A DNA stretch of 64,000 nt. Source: Anaerolineales bacterium (GTDB taxonomy: Bacteria > Chloroflexota > Anaerolineae > 4572-78 > J111). Made by a program: the position numbers and the translations under genes. Below, in pieces: positions 44,849 through 53,694 of this stretch (its first letter is position 1; each line of letters opens with the position of its first letter). The notes under the pieces are model-generated. The model saw only the letters and a program-made list of their open reading frames with translations, did not search any database and was not told the DNA's origin. The stretch spans positions 868,001-932,000 of the forward strand of contig JABTUW010000003.1 in the NCBI GenBank assembly GCA_015075185.1, in the 5' to 3' direction.

Positions 44849-44905
44849 AGGTGACTGGCACTTGGTTAGCCCTGTCTTGCCAAGGGAGAAAAGTGCCAGT
44901 CACCT
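44849..44905. repeat. 15-bp-arm hairpin in the leader of the GTPase operon
   Basis: AGGTGACTGGCACTT (44849-44863) and AAGTGCCAGTCACCT (44891-44905) are perfect reverse complements with a 27-base loop. The hairpin lies between the operon promoter (44917-44945) and the GTPase start (44798), so it would be transcribed in the 5' leader. A covarying copy sits at 51521-51602. The motif resembles REP/MITE-type repeats. Confidence 0.85.
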
Positions 44906-48255: not shown

Positions 48256-50043
48256 CTAATTGAGGTCCAGCACCCATAAGCCATCAAGGGCCGTGCCCTT
48301 CGCCGCGAGTAGGGCAATTTTGCTGCCATCCGGCGAGACGCGCCAGTCGTTGTTGGCGATGACCAGACCCGTACCACCGGGGAAAAGAGAGCTGGTTTTG
48401 CCGGTGGGGACATCATATTCGTAGAAGTTGTGCTCCGCAGCCTGGGGGTCAAAGGGGATGTAAACCAGGCGCTGGTTGTCCCGCCAGCGATAAGTTCCAA
48501 AAAACGGAAGTTTCTGCGGCTCCAGCTTTGACGCTTGCAGGTCCAGCAGCCACATTCCATTCTGGTCAGCCTCCGCATCAAAGGTTACATAATAAACTAA
48601 ATAACGCTTATCAGGGCTAAAAGCCATACCGCGCATGCGGGGCACCTCGAGCAGTTTGGTTTCGCTGCCATTGGGCAGAGACAGGGTGAAGAATTCCTCG
48701 TCGGAGCCGCCCGGAATGCGCCGGGAGGCCAGGAGTTTATCGTCGGCGAGCCAGGTCAGCAGATTGGTTCGCCGCGACCGCAGCATAACCTGGGTATCGC
48801 TGCCATCTACCCTGGCCTGCCACAGGATTTCCTCCCGATTATCGCTCGGCGCGTCATCGTCGAAAACTTCCCAAACGATGAATTGGCTGTCAGGGGTAAA
48901 GTTAGGGCTGCGTCCCTGGGTATCAATTTCCCAGGTTTCACCATCGGCCAGTCGCTCGATGATCGTCATGCCCTCACTCCGGCCCGGATAGGCGACCAGC
49001 GCGCCATCGGGGCTAAAGATGCCCAGCCGGCCGGTCACCAACTGCGGAGCGGAGGTGGCTCCCGTCACATCTATCCCCCATATACCCAGCGGCGTCCCTG
49101 GTCCTGGCTGATCAAGGAAACGCACCTCTGTTGAATCTTCATTCCAATACGGCTGGGTGCAGCAACTGCCGGCTGTGAGCTGGCGTCCAAAAGCGAGGGT
49201 AGCCAAGGGAGTAGTTTCAACGGAGAGACTAACTGCTGAGACGGGTATAACTGAATTGTCTGGCAGCAGTGAAGCCAACGTCTGGCGGCGCCAGTCGAAG
49301 GGAAAGGGATAAGCAAAATCGTTGACAATGGGGCCGCCTGTCTGCACTTCCGGCTGATCGTACAGAGTTTGCCACTTGCGCGGCTCTTGCAGGTCACGCT
49401 CATAATCACGCCCGGCGTTGCCGATCATGGTCAGGTTATCCCAGTTGGCCTCGATGAGCAACGACGGGTTATATTTGCGGATGTGGCTCAAATCTCGTAT
49501 TTCAAGGTGCAGGTGAGGGCGGCTGTAACACGTTTCGCCCGTGTCGCCGGAAAGGGCAATCACCTGGCCTCGCTTGACCGCCTCGCCCGGTACCAGGTCG
49601 GGGGGCGTTAACAGGTGGCCGTACATCGAGGCGTAGCCGTGCTGGGGATGGTCAATCATCAAATTGTGCGGCGGTGAGCCAAACGGCCCGTCCACGGCAA
49701 AGACAATGCCGTCGGCAATGGCGACAATTTCCGTGCCGCACGGAGCGGACAGGTCCACGCCAAAGTGAATGCCTCCGGAAGCGCCGTAGGTGGTAAATCT
49801 CTGGCGAAATGAGCCGGTGGTGTTGCCGTAAGGCTGGGCCATGAGCCAGGTATCAACGCCGGGCGGCTCGGCAAAAGGCAGTTGAAAAGGGCGCTCATCC
49901 TGGGCAAGTGTCCCACTTTGGAGAGGCGGTGAGCCGGCCTGCGCCGGACCGGGTGAACCCACCGAGAGTTGTAATATAAGCGCAAAAAGTAAAGCCACAC
50001 CGATCGTCAGGCTAAGGGCCACTTGTCTCGATTGAAGCCGCAT
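48256..50043 (-). CDS. secreted M23 (LytM) peptidase with beta-propeller repeats
   Basis: The 595-residue protein begins with a signal peptide or anchor (residues about 8-28, ALSLTIGVALLFALILQL). An M23 metallopeptidase domain follows (about 70-205), with the zinc ligands in GIHFGVD and PHLHLEIRD and the typical GYASMYGHLL and VKRGQVIALSGDTG. The C-terminal 370 residues hold TolB/WD40-like propeller blades (NFTPDSQFIVWEV, AFSPDKRYLVYYV, WRVSPDGSKIALLA). M23 enzymes cut glycyl or peptide crosslinks in peptidoglycan; the propeller may bind wall or protein partners. AGGAGG precedes ATG 50043 and a strong terminator follows the stop. It appears monocistronic. Confidence 0.92.
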   Translation of the reverse strand: MRLQSRQVALSLTIGVALLFALILQLSVGSPGPAQAGSPPLQSGTLAQDERPFQLPFAEPPGVDTWLMAQPYGNTTGSFRQRFTTYGASGGIHFGVDLSAPCGTEIVAIADGIVFAVDGPFGSPPHNLMIDHPQHGYASMYGHLLTPPDLVPGEAVKRGQVIALSGDTGETCYSRPHLHLEIRDLSHIRKYNPSLLIEANWDNLTMIGNAGRDYERDLQEPRKWQTLYDQPEVQTGGPIVNDFAYPFPFDWRRQTLASLLPDNSVIPVSAVSLSVETTPLATLAFGRQLTAGSCCTQPYWNEDSTEVRFLDQPGPGTPLGIWGIDVTGATSAPQLVTGRLGIFSPDGALVAYPGRSEGMTIIERLADGETWEIDTQGRSPNFTPDSQFIVWEVFDDDAPSDNREEILWQARVDGSDTQVMLRSRRTNLLTWLADDKLLASRRIPGGSDEEFFTLSLPNGSETKLLEVPRMRGMAFSPDKRYLVYYVTFDAEADQNGMWLLDLQASKLEPQKLPFFGTYRWRDNQRLVYIPFDPQAAEHNFYEYDVPTGKTSSLFPGGTGLVIANNDWRVSPDGSKIALLAAKGTALDGLWVLDLN

Positions 50044-50229: not shown

Positions 50230-51264
50230 TTACACTGGTCTCAAATGTTCTTCAAACCAGGCCAGCATATCTTGCCAGGCCTGGGTGGCCTGGGTTTCAT
50301 CGTAGCGCTCACCCGTATCATTGTGAAAGGCGTGATTGACGCCGGGGTAAACCTTCATTTGGTAAGTAACTCCGGCTTCCTGCAGCGCTTGTTCCAGAGC
50401 ATCCTTACCGGCGTTGATTCGTTCATCCTGCTCAGCATAGACGCCAAACACGGCCGCTTTAATGTTGGGTACCTGATCCAACTCCGGGGCAGGACCGTAG
50501 AAGGGTACCGCTGCCTTGAGTTCCGGGATCGCCGTGGCGCTGCGCCAGGTGATACCGCCGCCAAAACAAAAACCGGTCATACCGATCCGATCCCCGGCCA
50601 CAAAGTCCTGCCCCTGCAAATACGCAAAGGCAGTCTGAAAATCGCCGACATGCCGTTCAGGGCCGGCATCGGTCAACAGGCCCGGAATTTGATCTCGATC
50701 CAGATTGGCGGTGCCACCCTCACGGGAGAGCAGGTCAAGCGCCAGGGCAACATAGCCGGCCTTGGCAAAGCGGCGAGCCACATCCCGGATGTGGGGGGTC
50801 AAGCCCCGATTCTCGTGGCAGACCAGAATAGCCGGATAGGTTCCATCCGCCACCGGGCGAGCCAAATAGCCCATGATTTCGGCCCCCTGACTCTCCAGCG
50901 TGACCTCACTGGACTGCACCGCCGGGTCGCCCTCGGGTACAGAGAGGGGGCTTTTGGCGTCCGGCACCGCCCCTGCTTGCGCGCCTGCTGCTCCTTCCGC
51001 CGTGGCTGCCGCTTCAGGTGGTGTGGTAGCCACTGCTGGGGGCGGAGCCGTCGCCGCAGGTTCCGGCGGTGGAACGGTTTCCGTCGGGGCCGGCAGTTCT
51101 GCCGGAGCACAGCCCAGCGCACTCATGGTTGTGATGGTTGCGGCCATACTGCCGGTGATGAAAAACAAGCGCCGAATGAAGGTCCGCCGGCTCAACAACC
51201 CCTCCCGGTAATCATCATAGAATTCTTCGGCCAGATATTTTTGAAAGGTATCAAGCTCTTTCAT
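50230..51264 (-). CDS. Tat-exported lipoprotein of the dienelactone hydrolase family
   Basis: In this 344-residue protein the N-terminus carries a twin-arginine motif (SRRTFIRR) about 25 residues in, a hydrophobic stretch, then a lipobox-like SALGC. So it should be exported folded and lipid-anchored. An Ala/Pro/Thr-rich linker (about 55-105) precedes the alpha/beta-hydrolase domain, with HENRGL, the nucleophile in GFCFGGG (Cys), Asp in EQDERI and His in NHAFHN. Dienelactone hydrolases open lactone rings; the extracellular substrate is unknown. GGGGGA precedes ATG 51264. Its promoter region faces the two-component operon, and a mirror-image CTCAG array (51342-51368) suggests control by that regulator. 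Confidence 0.9.
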   Translation of the reverse strand: MKELDTFQKYLAEEFYDDYREGLLSRRTFIRRLFFITGSMAATITTMSALGCAPAELPAPTETVPPPEPAATAPPPAVATTPPEAAATAEGAAGAQAGAVPDAKSPLSVPEGDPAVQSSEVTLESQGAEIMGYLARPVADGTYPAILVCHENRGLTPHIRDVARRFAKAGYVALALDLLSREGGTANLDRDQIPGLLTDAGPERHVGDFQTAFAYLQGQDFVAGDRIGMTGFCFGGGITWRSATAIPELKAAVPFYGPAPELDQVPNIKAAVFGVYAEQDERINAGKDALEQALQEAGVTYQMKVYPGVNHAFHNDTGERYDETQATQAWQDMLAWFEEHLRPV

Positions 51265-51341
51265 TTTTCCCCCTTTGTCTCTTTTTTAAAGATAACAGGC
51301 TACTGACTCAAGCCATTGTAGCGAATCATCTTAAAAATTTC

Positions 51342-51368
51342 CTAAGAGAATCCTGAGAAGACCCTGAG
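51342..51368 (-). promoter_or_regulatory. 11-base-spaced CTCAG array facing the hydrolase gene
   Basis: On the minus strand: CTCAG (51368-51364), CTCAG (51357-51353) and CTTAG (51346-51342), each exactly 11 bases apart. A TACAAT -10 candidate lies downstream at 51320-51315. The unit order matches the first three units of the plus-strand array at 51414. Confidence 0.65.
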
Positions 51369-51413
51369 AGTCCCTTTGGTGAAGGTATGCAAAAGTACTC
51401 CAAACCCATCGCT

Positions 51414-51451
51414 CTCAGTAATTTCTCAGCTTTGTCTTAGCTTTTGCTCAG
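51414..51451 (+). promoter_or_regulatory. 11-base-spaced CTCAG operator of the two-component operon
   Basis: CTCAG 51414-51418, CTCAG 51425-51429, CTTAG 51436-51440 and CTCAG 51447-51451, all at an exact 11-base period. A -10 candidate (GATAAT, 51462-51467) follows 10 bases after the last unit, so the array takes the place of the -35 box. This is the design of promoters activated by OmpR/PhoB-type regulators. Confidence 0.7.
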
Positions 51452-51520
51452 ATATGAAGGTGATAATATAGACAGAGGCTTCAGGCTTCACTATAATAGT
51501 TTCTGTCGGAAAGAAAAACC

Positions 51521-51602
51521 AGGTGACAGGCACTTTTAAGCAAAAACAGGTGGTTTTTGTTCAAATAAGCCCAATTAGTAGTTCGATAAGTGCCTGTCAC
51601 CT
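51521..51602. repeat. 15-bp-arm hairpin in the leader of the two-component operon
   Basis: AGGTGACAGGCACTT (51521-51535) and AAGTGCCTGTCACCT (51588-51602) are perfect reverse complements. An inner stem CAAAAAC/GTTTTTG lies in the loop. It ends 15 bases before ATG 51618. It matches the hairpin at 44849-44905 except for one base pair, changed on both arms. Confidence 0.85.
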
Positions 51603-51617
51603 TAATCCAAGAAACCG

Positions 51618-52295
51618 ATGACCACAATTTTAGTTGCCGATGACGATCAAAAATTACTCAAAATGGTGCGCCGGACCCTGATTTATGAAGGGTTTCAGGT
51701 GATGACTGCCGAAAATGGGCGTGAGGCTCTGGCGAAATTGGAGGTCCAAACGCCCGACCTGGTGGTGCTCGACTGGATGATGCCGGAACTGGATGGGCTG
51801 GAGCTGCTGCACCATCTGCGGGGGGCCGGAGATGAAGTTCCGGTACTCATCCTGACCGCGCGTGACGCCGTCGAGGATCGCGTCCAGGGGCTGGACCGGG
51901 GCGCTGACGATTATCTCATCAAGCCTTTTGCACCTTCGGAACTGCTGGCCCGGCTGCGGGCGCTGCTCCGGCGGACCCGGCTGCCCCGCGTCGAGACGCC
52001 TCTGATTTTTGCCGACCTCTATCTTAATCCCATCACCCGCGAAACCCGGCGAGGCAGCCGCTCCTTTGAATTAACGCCCAAAGAATTCGAGTTATTTCAT
52101 TTATTGATGCGCCATCCCCGCCAGGTATTGGTCCGGGATCGTATTCTGGAGGAGGTCTGGAACTATGATTTTGGCGGCGAGGATAACGTGTTAGAGGTAT
52201 ACATCGGTTATTTACGCAAAAAAACCGAGGCCGGGGGCGAACCCCGGTTGATTCATACCGTGCGTGGGATTGGTTACGTTTTGCGAGAGGCTTAA
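51618..52295 (+). CDS. OmpR-family response regulator
   Basis: The 225-residue protein has a receiver (VADDDQKLLK, phospho-acceptor D52 in VLDWMMPELDG, Lys in LIKPFAPSE) and a winged-helix output domain (about 125-223: LTPKEFELFHLLM, VLVRDRILEEVW, VYIGYLRKKTE, GIGYVLREA). It is co-transcribed with the kinase that starts one base after its stop. No clear Shine-Dalgarno is visible upstream; the leader hairpin ends 15 bases before ATG 51618. The 11-base CTCAG arrays upstream are the likely binding sites, implying autoregulation and control of the divergent hydrolase. Confidence 0.96.
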   Translation: MTTILVADDDQKLLKMVRRTLIYEGFQVMTAENGREALAKLEVQTPDLVVLDWMMPELDGLELLHHLRGAGDEVPVLILTARDAVEDRVQGLDRGADDYLIKPFAPSELLARLRALLRRTRLPRVETPLIFADLYLNPITRETRRGSRSFELTPKEFELFHLLMRHPRQVLVRDRILEEVWNYDFGGEDNVLEVYIGYLRKKTEAGGEPRLIHTVRGIGYVLREA

Positions 52296-52296
52296 A

Positions 52297-53694
52297 ATGT
52301 CCATTCGGCTGCGCTTAACCCTGCTTTACAGCCTTATCCTGGCCCTGACGTTGGTTATCTTCAGCGCCATTCTCTACGTCACCCAGGCCCGAACCACCCT
52401 GAACGACACAAAAGAAGCCGTGGCGGGGCGGGCCAAGTATCTCATTGAAGGACCGCTGGCCCATGGCTATTGGGATAAGGCGCTCAAGCCAGACTCGTCC
52501 AGGATCGGAACTTTTACCCAAATCCGCGATTTGGATGGCCAGGTATTGGGGCGTTCTCCTAATTTGGCTGACGATGCCCCGGCTTTGCCTCTGGGCGAAA
52601 CGGCCTTACAAGCCGCCCAACAGGGCCAGGCCTGGGTTGAAATTGCAGCGATGGATAGCGAGCGGTTATTCATTCACAACCAGCCTTTCAATTACGGAAC
52701 AGATAATACGCAGCTTATCCTGCAAGTCGCAGCCTCACTGGCCGAACAGGACCAAAATTTGAGCACGCTGGGTCGAATTTTAATTATCGGCAGCAGCGTG
52801 GCCGTAATTGCCGCTTTTGGCATTGGCTGGCTGTTAGCCGGTGTAGCTCTGCGTCCCATCAATCGCCTTCAACAGACGGCGCAGGCGATCGGCGTAGAAC
52901 GGGATTTCAACCGCCGGGTGGATTATCGCGGCCCTAACGACGAGATTGGGCAGTTGGTGACCACCTTCAATGATATGCTGGCCGAACTCCAGGCGGCTTA
53001 TGTTCAGGTCGAGGAAACGCTTCAAACCCAACGCCGTTTTGTGGCCGACGCTTCACACGAATTACGCACACCCTTGACGACTCTGCGCGGCAATATCGGT
53101 TTGCTACAACGGCGGCCCCCCATTAACGCCGAGGATCGGACTGACGTTCTGGACGATATGGTGGCTGAGACCGAGCGGCTCATGCGGTTGGTCAATGACC
53201 TGTTGGCCCTGGCCCGGGCCGATGCGGGACGGCCCCTAAGCCAAGAACCCGTTCAACTTAAGCCGTTACTTGAAGATGTCTGCCAGCAGGTTAAATTACT
53301 GGCGCCTGAACGGTCTGTTGTTTGTCAGGCCAGCTTCGATGCTGCCGTTATGGGTGATGACGACGCCCTTAAGCAGGTTCTGTTGGTTTTACTTGACAAT
53401 GCCCTCAAATACACTCCAGCGGAAACCACGATTACCCTGGCGACCCATCTGAATAATGGCGAAGTTGCCATCCAGGTTAGTGACAACGGTCCTGGGATCG
53501 CCTCAGCCCATCTGCCCCATCTTTTCGACCGTTTTTACCGGGGCGACACCGCCCGCAGCAGCCCCGGCGCCGGCCTGGGTTTAGCCATTGCCGAAGAGTT
53601 GGTCAAGGCCCAAAATGGTGTAATCACCGTCGAAAGCCGAATGGGTCACGGCAGTACATTTACCCTGACCTTTCCCCGGCACAGTACGGAATAG
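52297..53694 (+). CDS. membrane sensor histidine kinase, partner of the OmpR-type regulator
   Basis: ATG 52297 is chosen (GAGAGG upstream), one base after the regulator stop; a longer frame would overlap the regulator. The 465-residue protein has a first membrane helix (about 6-27, LTLLYSLILALTLVIFSAIL), an external sensor region of about 135 residues, and a second helix (about 165-190). A HAMP domain follows (RPINRLQQTAQAIG), then HisKA with ASHELRTPL (H254) and HATPase with NALKYTP, DNGPGI and GAGLGLAI. This is a classical EnvZ/PhoR-like kinase. The extracellular signal is unknown; the putative target, an exported hydrolase, hints at an envelope or nutrient signal. Confidence 0.95.
   Translation: MSIRLRLTLLYSLILALTLVIFSAILYVTQARTTLNDTKEAVAGRAKYLIEGPLAHGYWDKALKPDSSRIGTFTQIRDLDGQVLGRSPNLADDAPALPLGETALQAAQQGQAWVEIAAMDSERLFIHNQPFNYGTDNTQLILQVAASLAEQDQNLSTLGRILIIGSSVAVIAAFGIGWLLAGVALRPINRLQQTAQAIGVERDFNRRVDYRGPNDEIGQLVTTFNDMLAELQAAYVQVEETLQTQRRFVADASHELRTPLTTLRGNIGLLQRRPPINAEDRTDVLDDMVAETERLMRLVNDLLALARADAGRPLSQEPVQLKPLLEDVCQQVKLLAPERSVVCQASFDAAVMGDDDALKQVLLVLLDNALKYTPAETTITLATHLNNGEVAIQVSDNGPGIASAHLPHLFDRFYRGDTARSSPGAGLGLAIAEELVKAQNGVITVESRMGHGSTFTLTFPRHSTE

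Follow-up and report, generated by a model that had tools for sequence, protein, structure and literature searches.

Which protein reads the two mirror-image arrays of CTCAG words that separate a hydrolase gene from a two-component operon in the genome of an Anaerolineales bacterium, and what would its binding do to the two divergent promoters? We addressed this question in a stretch of 64,000 nucleotides, referred to below as the window, and in other genomes of the same class. Results of our analysis point with good confidence to the arrays being operators of the adjacent response regulator, which would be phosphorylated by the adjacent kinase and would activate both divergent promoters as part of an envelope-stress regulon.

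Array layout and candidate promoters

All seven CTCAG or CTTAG pentamers described in the first-pass annotation, three on the minus strand and four on the plus strand, are present at their places (Table 1), and the exact 11-base period holds throughout both arrays. Once a degenerate TTTAA is counted, the layout of the locus is four plus four units, with 10 bases to a -10-like hexamer on each side. A three-unit, 27-base pattern allowed up to two mismatches has three matches in the window, all at the array locus, vs. a mean of 0.14 and a largest number of two in shuffled windows, none of 100 of which reached three. The spacer bases between the units of the window are not alike.

Table 1. Features of the array locus and its surroundings, in window coordinates.
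Feature	Position	Strand	Remark
M23-peptidase-domain protein	48256-50043	-	Pfam Peptidase_M23; second gene behind minus array
Dienelactone-hydrolase-family protein	50230-51264	-	Pfam DLH 2e-53; first gene behind minus array
-10-like TACAAT	51315-51320	-	putative hydrolase promoter; 10 bases past fourth minus unit
Whole minus array	51331-51368	-	conserved array class 'R', 22/38 orthologous loci
Minus array unit 4, TTTAA	51331-51335	-	degenerate; weak eighth unit of the locus
Minus array unit 3, CTTAG	51342-51346	-	towards hydrolase
Minus array unit 2, CTCAG	51353-51357	-	towards hydrolase
Minus array unit 1, CTCAG	51364-51368	-	towards hydrolase
Whole plus array	51414-51451	+	conserved array class 'F', 27/38 orthologous loci
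Plus array unit 1, CTCAG	51414	+	towards regulator
Plus array unit 2, CTCAG	51425	+	towards regulator
Plus array unit 3, CTTAG	51436	+	towards regulator
Plus array unit 4, CTCAG	51447	+	towards regulator
-10-like GATAAT	51462-51467	+	10 bases past last plus unit
TAGACA-N17-TATAAT	51469-51497	+	putative second regulator-gene promoter; near-perfect sigma-70, 11/12 consensus bases
Dispersed palindromic repeat, AGGTGACAGGCAC arms	51521-51602	.	regulator's leader
OmpR/PhoB-type response regulator	51618-52295	+	Pfam Response_reg and Trans_reg_C; recognition helix DNVLEVYIGYLRKK
Sensor histidine kinase	52297-53694	+	Pfam HAMP, HisKA, HATPase_c; directly 3' of regulator

The regulator matches the Pfam receiver domain at 3e-32 and the Trans_reg_C winged helix at 3.5e-27. 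It scores below the curated NCBIfam cut-offs for PhoB (211 vs. 296 bits), NblR (232 vs. 300), RppA (195 vs. 250), and the CzcR type (210 vs. 279), and none of the NCBIfam models among the matches listed names its family. The N-terminus of the hydrolase resembles, by eye, a twin-arginine signal. In the relative G001, the first divergent gene encodes an M23-domain protein.

The repeat in the leader of the regulator gene forms a strong predicted RNA hairpin (z -4.7) and resembles a REPIN or MITE-type element, with 65 copies of the AGGTGACAGGCAC arm in the genome, mostly as inverted pairs. The palindrome is absent from G001 and G010, the two closest array-bearing relatives, and is no part of their control region. 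A second inverted pair, with the variant arm GTGCCAGTCACC, lies at positions 44850-44904 of the window.

A -10 box had been placed 10 bases past the last plus unit in the first-pass annotation. The hexamer GATAAT is found exactly there, and its service as the -10 of the regulator gene is possible rather than proved. It need not be the sole -10 of this gene, because TAGACA-N17-TATAAT lies downstream of it. The two hexamers of this putative promoter do not vary among the window, G001, and G010, and its -35 starts, by eye, 17, 29, and 20 bases past the array, respectively. In these three genomes, TAGACA-N17-TATAAT is the better candidate for the regulator-gene promoter than the hexamer at 10 bases, and, since it follows the array, the regulator gene may have a basal as well as an array-driven promoter. 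Most orthologues having a plus array carry a TATAAT-like word 9-11 bases past the last unit, and inspection of the array consensus by eye revealed no TTGACA-like word at 17-base spacing. An array followed by a -10 without a -35-like word is consistent with an activator substituting for the -35 contact.

In the mechanism that we propose, the kinase would phosphorylate the regulator, and one regulator molecule would bind each TCTCAG(C/G)-N4 unit, head to tail and on one helix face, so that up to four regulators, as a phospho-regulator tetramer, could occupy one array. In both directions, the array would take the place of the -35 and end 10 bases before the -10, which would let the bound regulator recruit RNA polymerase. 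On the plus side, the regulator would raise the expression of its own operon, with the conventional promoter providing basal expression; on the minus side, it would raise that of the exported hydrolase and probably also of the M23 peptidase encoded by the following gene. Across the class as a whole, the CTCAG word would control genes of HtrA proteases, of HlyD/MacA adaptors together with ABC ATPases, of VTC, and of DUF2680 proteins, and these gene families make a response to envelope stress the most likely role of the system.

The opposite outcome of binding, in which the regulator would repress by occluding the -10/-35 region at one promoter or at both, is unlikely. It gains from the good sigma-70 promoter just past the array in the window, G001, and G010, since such a promoter would allow basal transcription without any need for upstream binding, but among the remaining orthologues with a plus array, most have the TATAAT-like word at 9-11 bases without a -35-like word, which is an activator-dependent layout.

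Conservation of the arrays and their link to the regulator

We regarded as orthologues the response regulators that match the window protein at E<=1e-87, a limit that is arbitrary. They are encoded by 38 of the 396 genomes of the class, are 61-100% identical, and in all 38 cases are adjoined by a histidine kinase. When every pentamer was counted at every distance of 6-20 bases in the 37 upstream regions other than that of the window, the commonest pair was CTCAG-CTCAG at 11 bases, present on the regulator's strand in 20/37 loci and on the other strand in 6/37, as compared with a maximum of three loci in 20 resamplings. Each of the other CTCAG-CTCAG distances between 6 and 20 occurred in at most one locus. 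This motif-free test is independent of the weights of the array score (four units and a -10 hexamer, compared with 228 resampled scores), which were set after the arrays had been viewed. Above all 228 resampled scores were, the window included, the plus arrays of 27 loci and the minus arrays of 22; both arrays scored in 16 and either of them in 33 of the 38. Thus conservation of the repeats upstream of orthologous operons, named beforehand as a point on which the proposal should stand or fall, was borne out. The gap to the -10 is 9, 10, and 11 bases in 6, 15, and 6 loci on the plus side, and 10 bases in all 22 loci on the minus side. The five orthologues without a scoring array are those of G035 and G171, with no array, of G100 and G017, with just two units, and of G186, where the regulator gene follows, in the same orientation, a DUF2680 gene that has an array.

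The consensus TTnnCTCAG offered in the first-pass annotation had to be replaced. Among the good units of the relatives, a T directly precedes 53 of the 76 on the plus side and 39 of the 45 on the minus side, and the unit is therefore better written TCTCAG(C/G)-N4; CACAG units are also found within the class. The third unit at divergent target promoters is CTTGG in 12/21 cases, CTTAG in 3/21, and CTCAG in 0/21, and carries as much information as units 1 and 2; at autoregulatory promoters, this position is simply degenerate. CTTGG recurs as the third unit in arrays at unlinked loci. Tentatively, the third register of the array might be a promoter-class code, with a distinct word at divergent targets and a degenerate one at autoregulatory promoters; CTTGG may then be a TTG-like -35 read by sigma region 4 between regulators, the operator and the -35 being interleaved.

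Four-unit arrays with up to three mismatches are found in 32/38 regulator-bearing genomes (113 matches vs. 11 of the reversed pattern, overlapping registers being counted separately) and in 5/38 regulator-less genomes (5 matches vs. 8), which gives a Fisher p of 4e-10 for a regulator-less set that was hand-picked from the class list and is near-complete in 33/38 cases, vs. 20/38 of the regulator-bearing set. Exact three-unit arrays, searched for in all 396 genomes, occur in 12/38 genomes with the regulator and 14/358 without it (p 4e-7). Upstream of paralogues, i.e., other OmpR-type regulators of the same and related genomes, an array was found in 0/35 cases on the plus and 1/35 on the minus strand (two loci with short upstream stretches, L016 and L032, were left out of the 35), and the sole match carries the word CTTAA, not CTCAG. 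The cross-genome co-occurrence and the absence from paralogue upstream regions uphold the link of the arrays to the adjacent OmpR/PhoB-type regulator that had been drawn from the window. The recognition helix reads N-V-L-E-V-Y-x-G-Y, with small changes among orthologues, and its Asn, Tyr, and Tyr at places 1, 6, and 9 are kept in all 38. A general genome scan yielded at least 118 four-unit loci, and these were excluded from the counts because, among those listed, two had a regulator match (30% and 36% identity).

Before another OmpR-type regulator gene (L029, G021:C112), we observed a four-unit, 11-base CTTAA array with one variant unit, which is perhaps that regulator's own operator.

That the arrays serve another DNA-binding protein, with the regulator being a mere neighbour, is improbable. 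Its proponents could point to the three-unit arrays in 14/358 class genomes that lack a regulator at E<=1e-87, to arrays beside other families, e.g., a P-type ATPase, and to two arrays that precede response-regulator genes of other clades. Against these stand the strong co-occurrence of arrays and regulator, the autoregulatory position in 27/38 loci, and the fit of the helix residues to the word, as judged from the available part of the PhoP report cited below. Least probable by far is a chance cluster, ruled out by the shuffles, the motif-free test, and the array conservation, or a decayed minisatellite: simple 11-base tandem repeats with CTCAG do occur in the class (e.g., CTCAGGACAAG in G071) and, according to the general genome scan, in unrelated genomes, but the differing spacers between units and the position and gap kept across orthologues rule out a simple minisatellite.

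Genes behind the arrays

With the adjacent regulator as the preferred reader of the arrays, the genes that follow them form its candidate regulon. HlyD/MacA-type adaptors (one BLAST cluster, three members of which were checked by Pfam) face the minus array in 11 of the 22 loci where this array scores. The other genes in this position encode the hydrolase of the window, M23 proteins, alpha/beta hydrolases, VTC, YkcB-like mannosyltransferases, and a DUF2680-like protein that is below the Pfam cut-off.

A genome scan had been suggested as a way to define the regulon. In its strict form it added no further strong array: a three-unit CTYAG pattern with up to one mismatch matched four places in the window's own genome, three of them at this locus, and the reversed control also matched four, which gives no sign of other strong arrays in that genome. 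With zero excess over the control, this route was dropped. What did emerge is a degenerate array before the HtrA gene on contig C5, reading TTGAG-CTCAG-CTCAT-TTTAG and followed, after 10 bases, by TATAAT. This HtrA is the orthologue (79% identical) of an array-preceded HtrA of G001, and the block of units and -10 is conserved between the two genomes. Altogether, arrays before HtrA-like genes were seen in six genomes, that of the window included.

CTCAG-N6-CTCAG occurs at 13 places in the window's genome, and its reversed form at 11. Of the 13, four are copies of CTCAGGACAGGCTCAG, a small dispersed repeat holding the two-unit motif and hence a trap for regulon scans.

Away from the orthologous positions, we inspected 52 arrays (24 + 28), some of which come from regulator-less genomes and some of which surely arose by chance; the longest ORF near the array was taken as the first downstream ORF. 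In 23 of the 52 this ORF encodes an adaptor (6), an ABC ATPase (5), an HtrA-like protease (5), a DUF2680 protein (4), or VTC (3), and the remaining ORFs that were scanned belong to other families or to none. The HtrA, adaptor/ABC exporter, VTC, and M23 genes behind arrays suggest an MprAB-like envelope-stress switch common to Actinobacteria and Chloroflexota.

Two loci deserve separate mention. At L251 (G026:C136, positions 1429-1562), mirror arrays of six and four CTCAG units lie between a histidine-kinase gene and a gene of an HlyD-type adaptor, with no regulator gene between these two genes. At L281 (G057:C12), CTCAG arrays precede a P-type metal ATPase gene; no regulator within the limit of E<=1e-87 is encoded by this genome.

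Relation to known systems

The pho box of Escherichia coli PhoB consists of direct repeats with an 11-base period that stand in place of the -35, upstream of the -10; the arrays resemble it in period and promoter position and differ from it in the word. Binding to direct repeats, three- and four-fold repeats, and autoregulation are already known for this regulator superfamily, whereas novelty seems to lie in the operator word, in the divergent arrangement of the promoters, and in the regulon of this class. The literature that we searched, which covered few subscription journals, contained no described binding motif for a two-component system of Chloroflexota, for one of which an operator word, a promoter layout, and a candidate regulon are now proposed.

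The closest operator is that of Mycobacterium tuberculosis PhoP. According to the part of the report available to us, PhoP binds 11-base head-to-tail repeats TCACAGC-N4-TCACAGC, with a Kd of 19 nM for two copies, 4.6 nM for three, and 2.2 nM for four, and contacts bases through Asn212, Val213, Glu215, Ser216, Tyr217, and Tyr220 (PMC4832192). Five of these six residues are matched in the window regulator, Ser216 being replaced by Val, and the class word TCTCAG(C/G) is one base apart from that of PhoP, with position 3 being mostly T in the class. The same excerpt states that PhoP recognizes the position-3 base by way of a water molecule that Asn212 and Ser216 hold (PMC4832192). The base that differs between the words would thus be the one that PhoP reads through water, which would fit the change of Ser216 to Val. 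The genes targeted by PhoP are other than the candidate targets of the window regulator. A looser, 9-base PhoP repeat appears in the accessible portion of another paper (PMC3413638), and a further one, as far as it was available, deals with MtrA (PMC5650626).

In a phylogenetic tree, the 38 regulators and that of Thermomicrobium roseum form one group (support 100/96), which is placed beside regulators of Nocardia, Tsukamurella, and Nonomuraea (42 rows, 96/90), with the paralogues apart; these three are the actinobacterial rows of the tree, and the M. tuberculosis MprA and PhoP sequences are not among them. The order of regulator, kinase, and trypsin-like peptidase genes is annotated in Thermomicrobium and Tsukamurella and can be read from the ORFs of Nocardia farcinica. 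The genes of the plasmid records are annotated, where at all, as response regulators only, and we call them MprA on the basis of what we take to be the gene order in M. tuberculosis. The box of M. tuberculosis MprA was not found in the literature searched; it may contain CTCAG, a possibility that was not used in the analysis.

The MprAB-HtrA (PepD) envelope-stress two-component system of Actinobacteria would be represented by the sister clade of the window's group, in which two of three regulators (N. farcinica and Tsukamurella) belong to regulator-kinase-HtrA operons. In Corynebacterium glutamicum, MprA is autoregulatory and also binds the promoter of htrA, according to the part of the report that was available (PMC12113857). 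HtrA is thereby a target there, as it putatively is in the window's genome, where an array precedes its gene. The C. glutamicum motif TKTTAAGAAM, as given in that part, reads KTTCTTAAMA on the other strand and, by our own comparison, is near TTCTYAG. Because of the tree, the gene order, and the regulation of itself and of htrA by C. glutamicum MprA, as far as the available text goes, we place the window system beside MprAB. The two differ in that the operon of the window has another ORF after the kinase gene and no HtrA gene, the latter being located on contig C5, and in that promoters of the window carry as many as four units and the regulator operon has a divergently oriented partner gene; an array was found upstream of none of the three actinobacterial regulators. 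An htrA gene of the MprAB type adjoins the kinase gene in T. roseum and is absent from this position in the window. In T. roseum, one array faces a divergent YceI/hydrolase pair and a second precedes the peptidase gene, and the presence of such similar arrays in a cultured organism (DSM 5159) makes the proposal directly testable.
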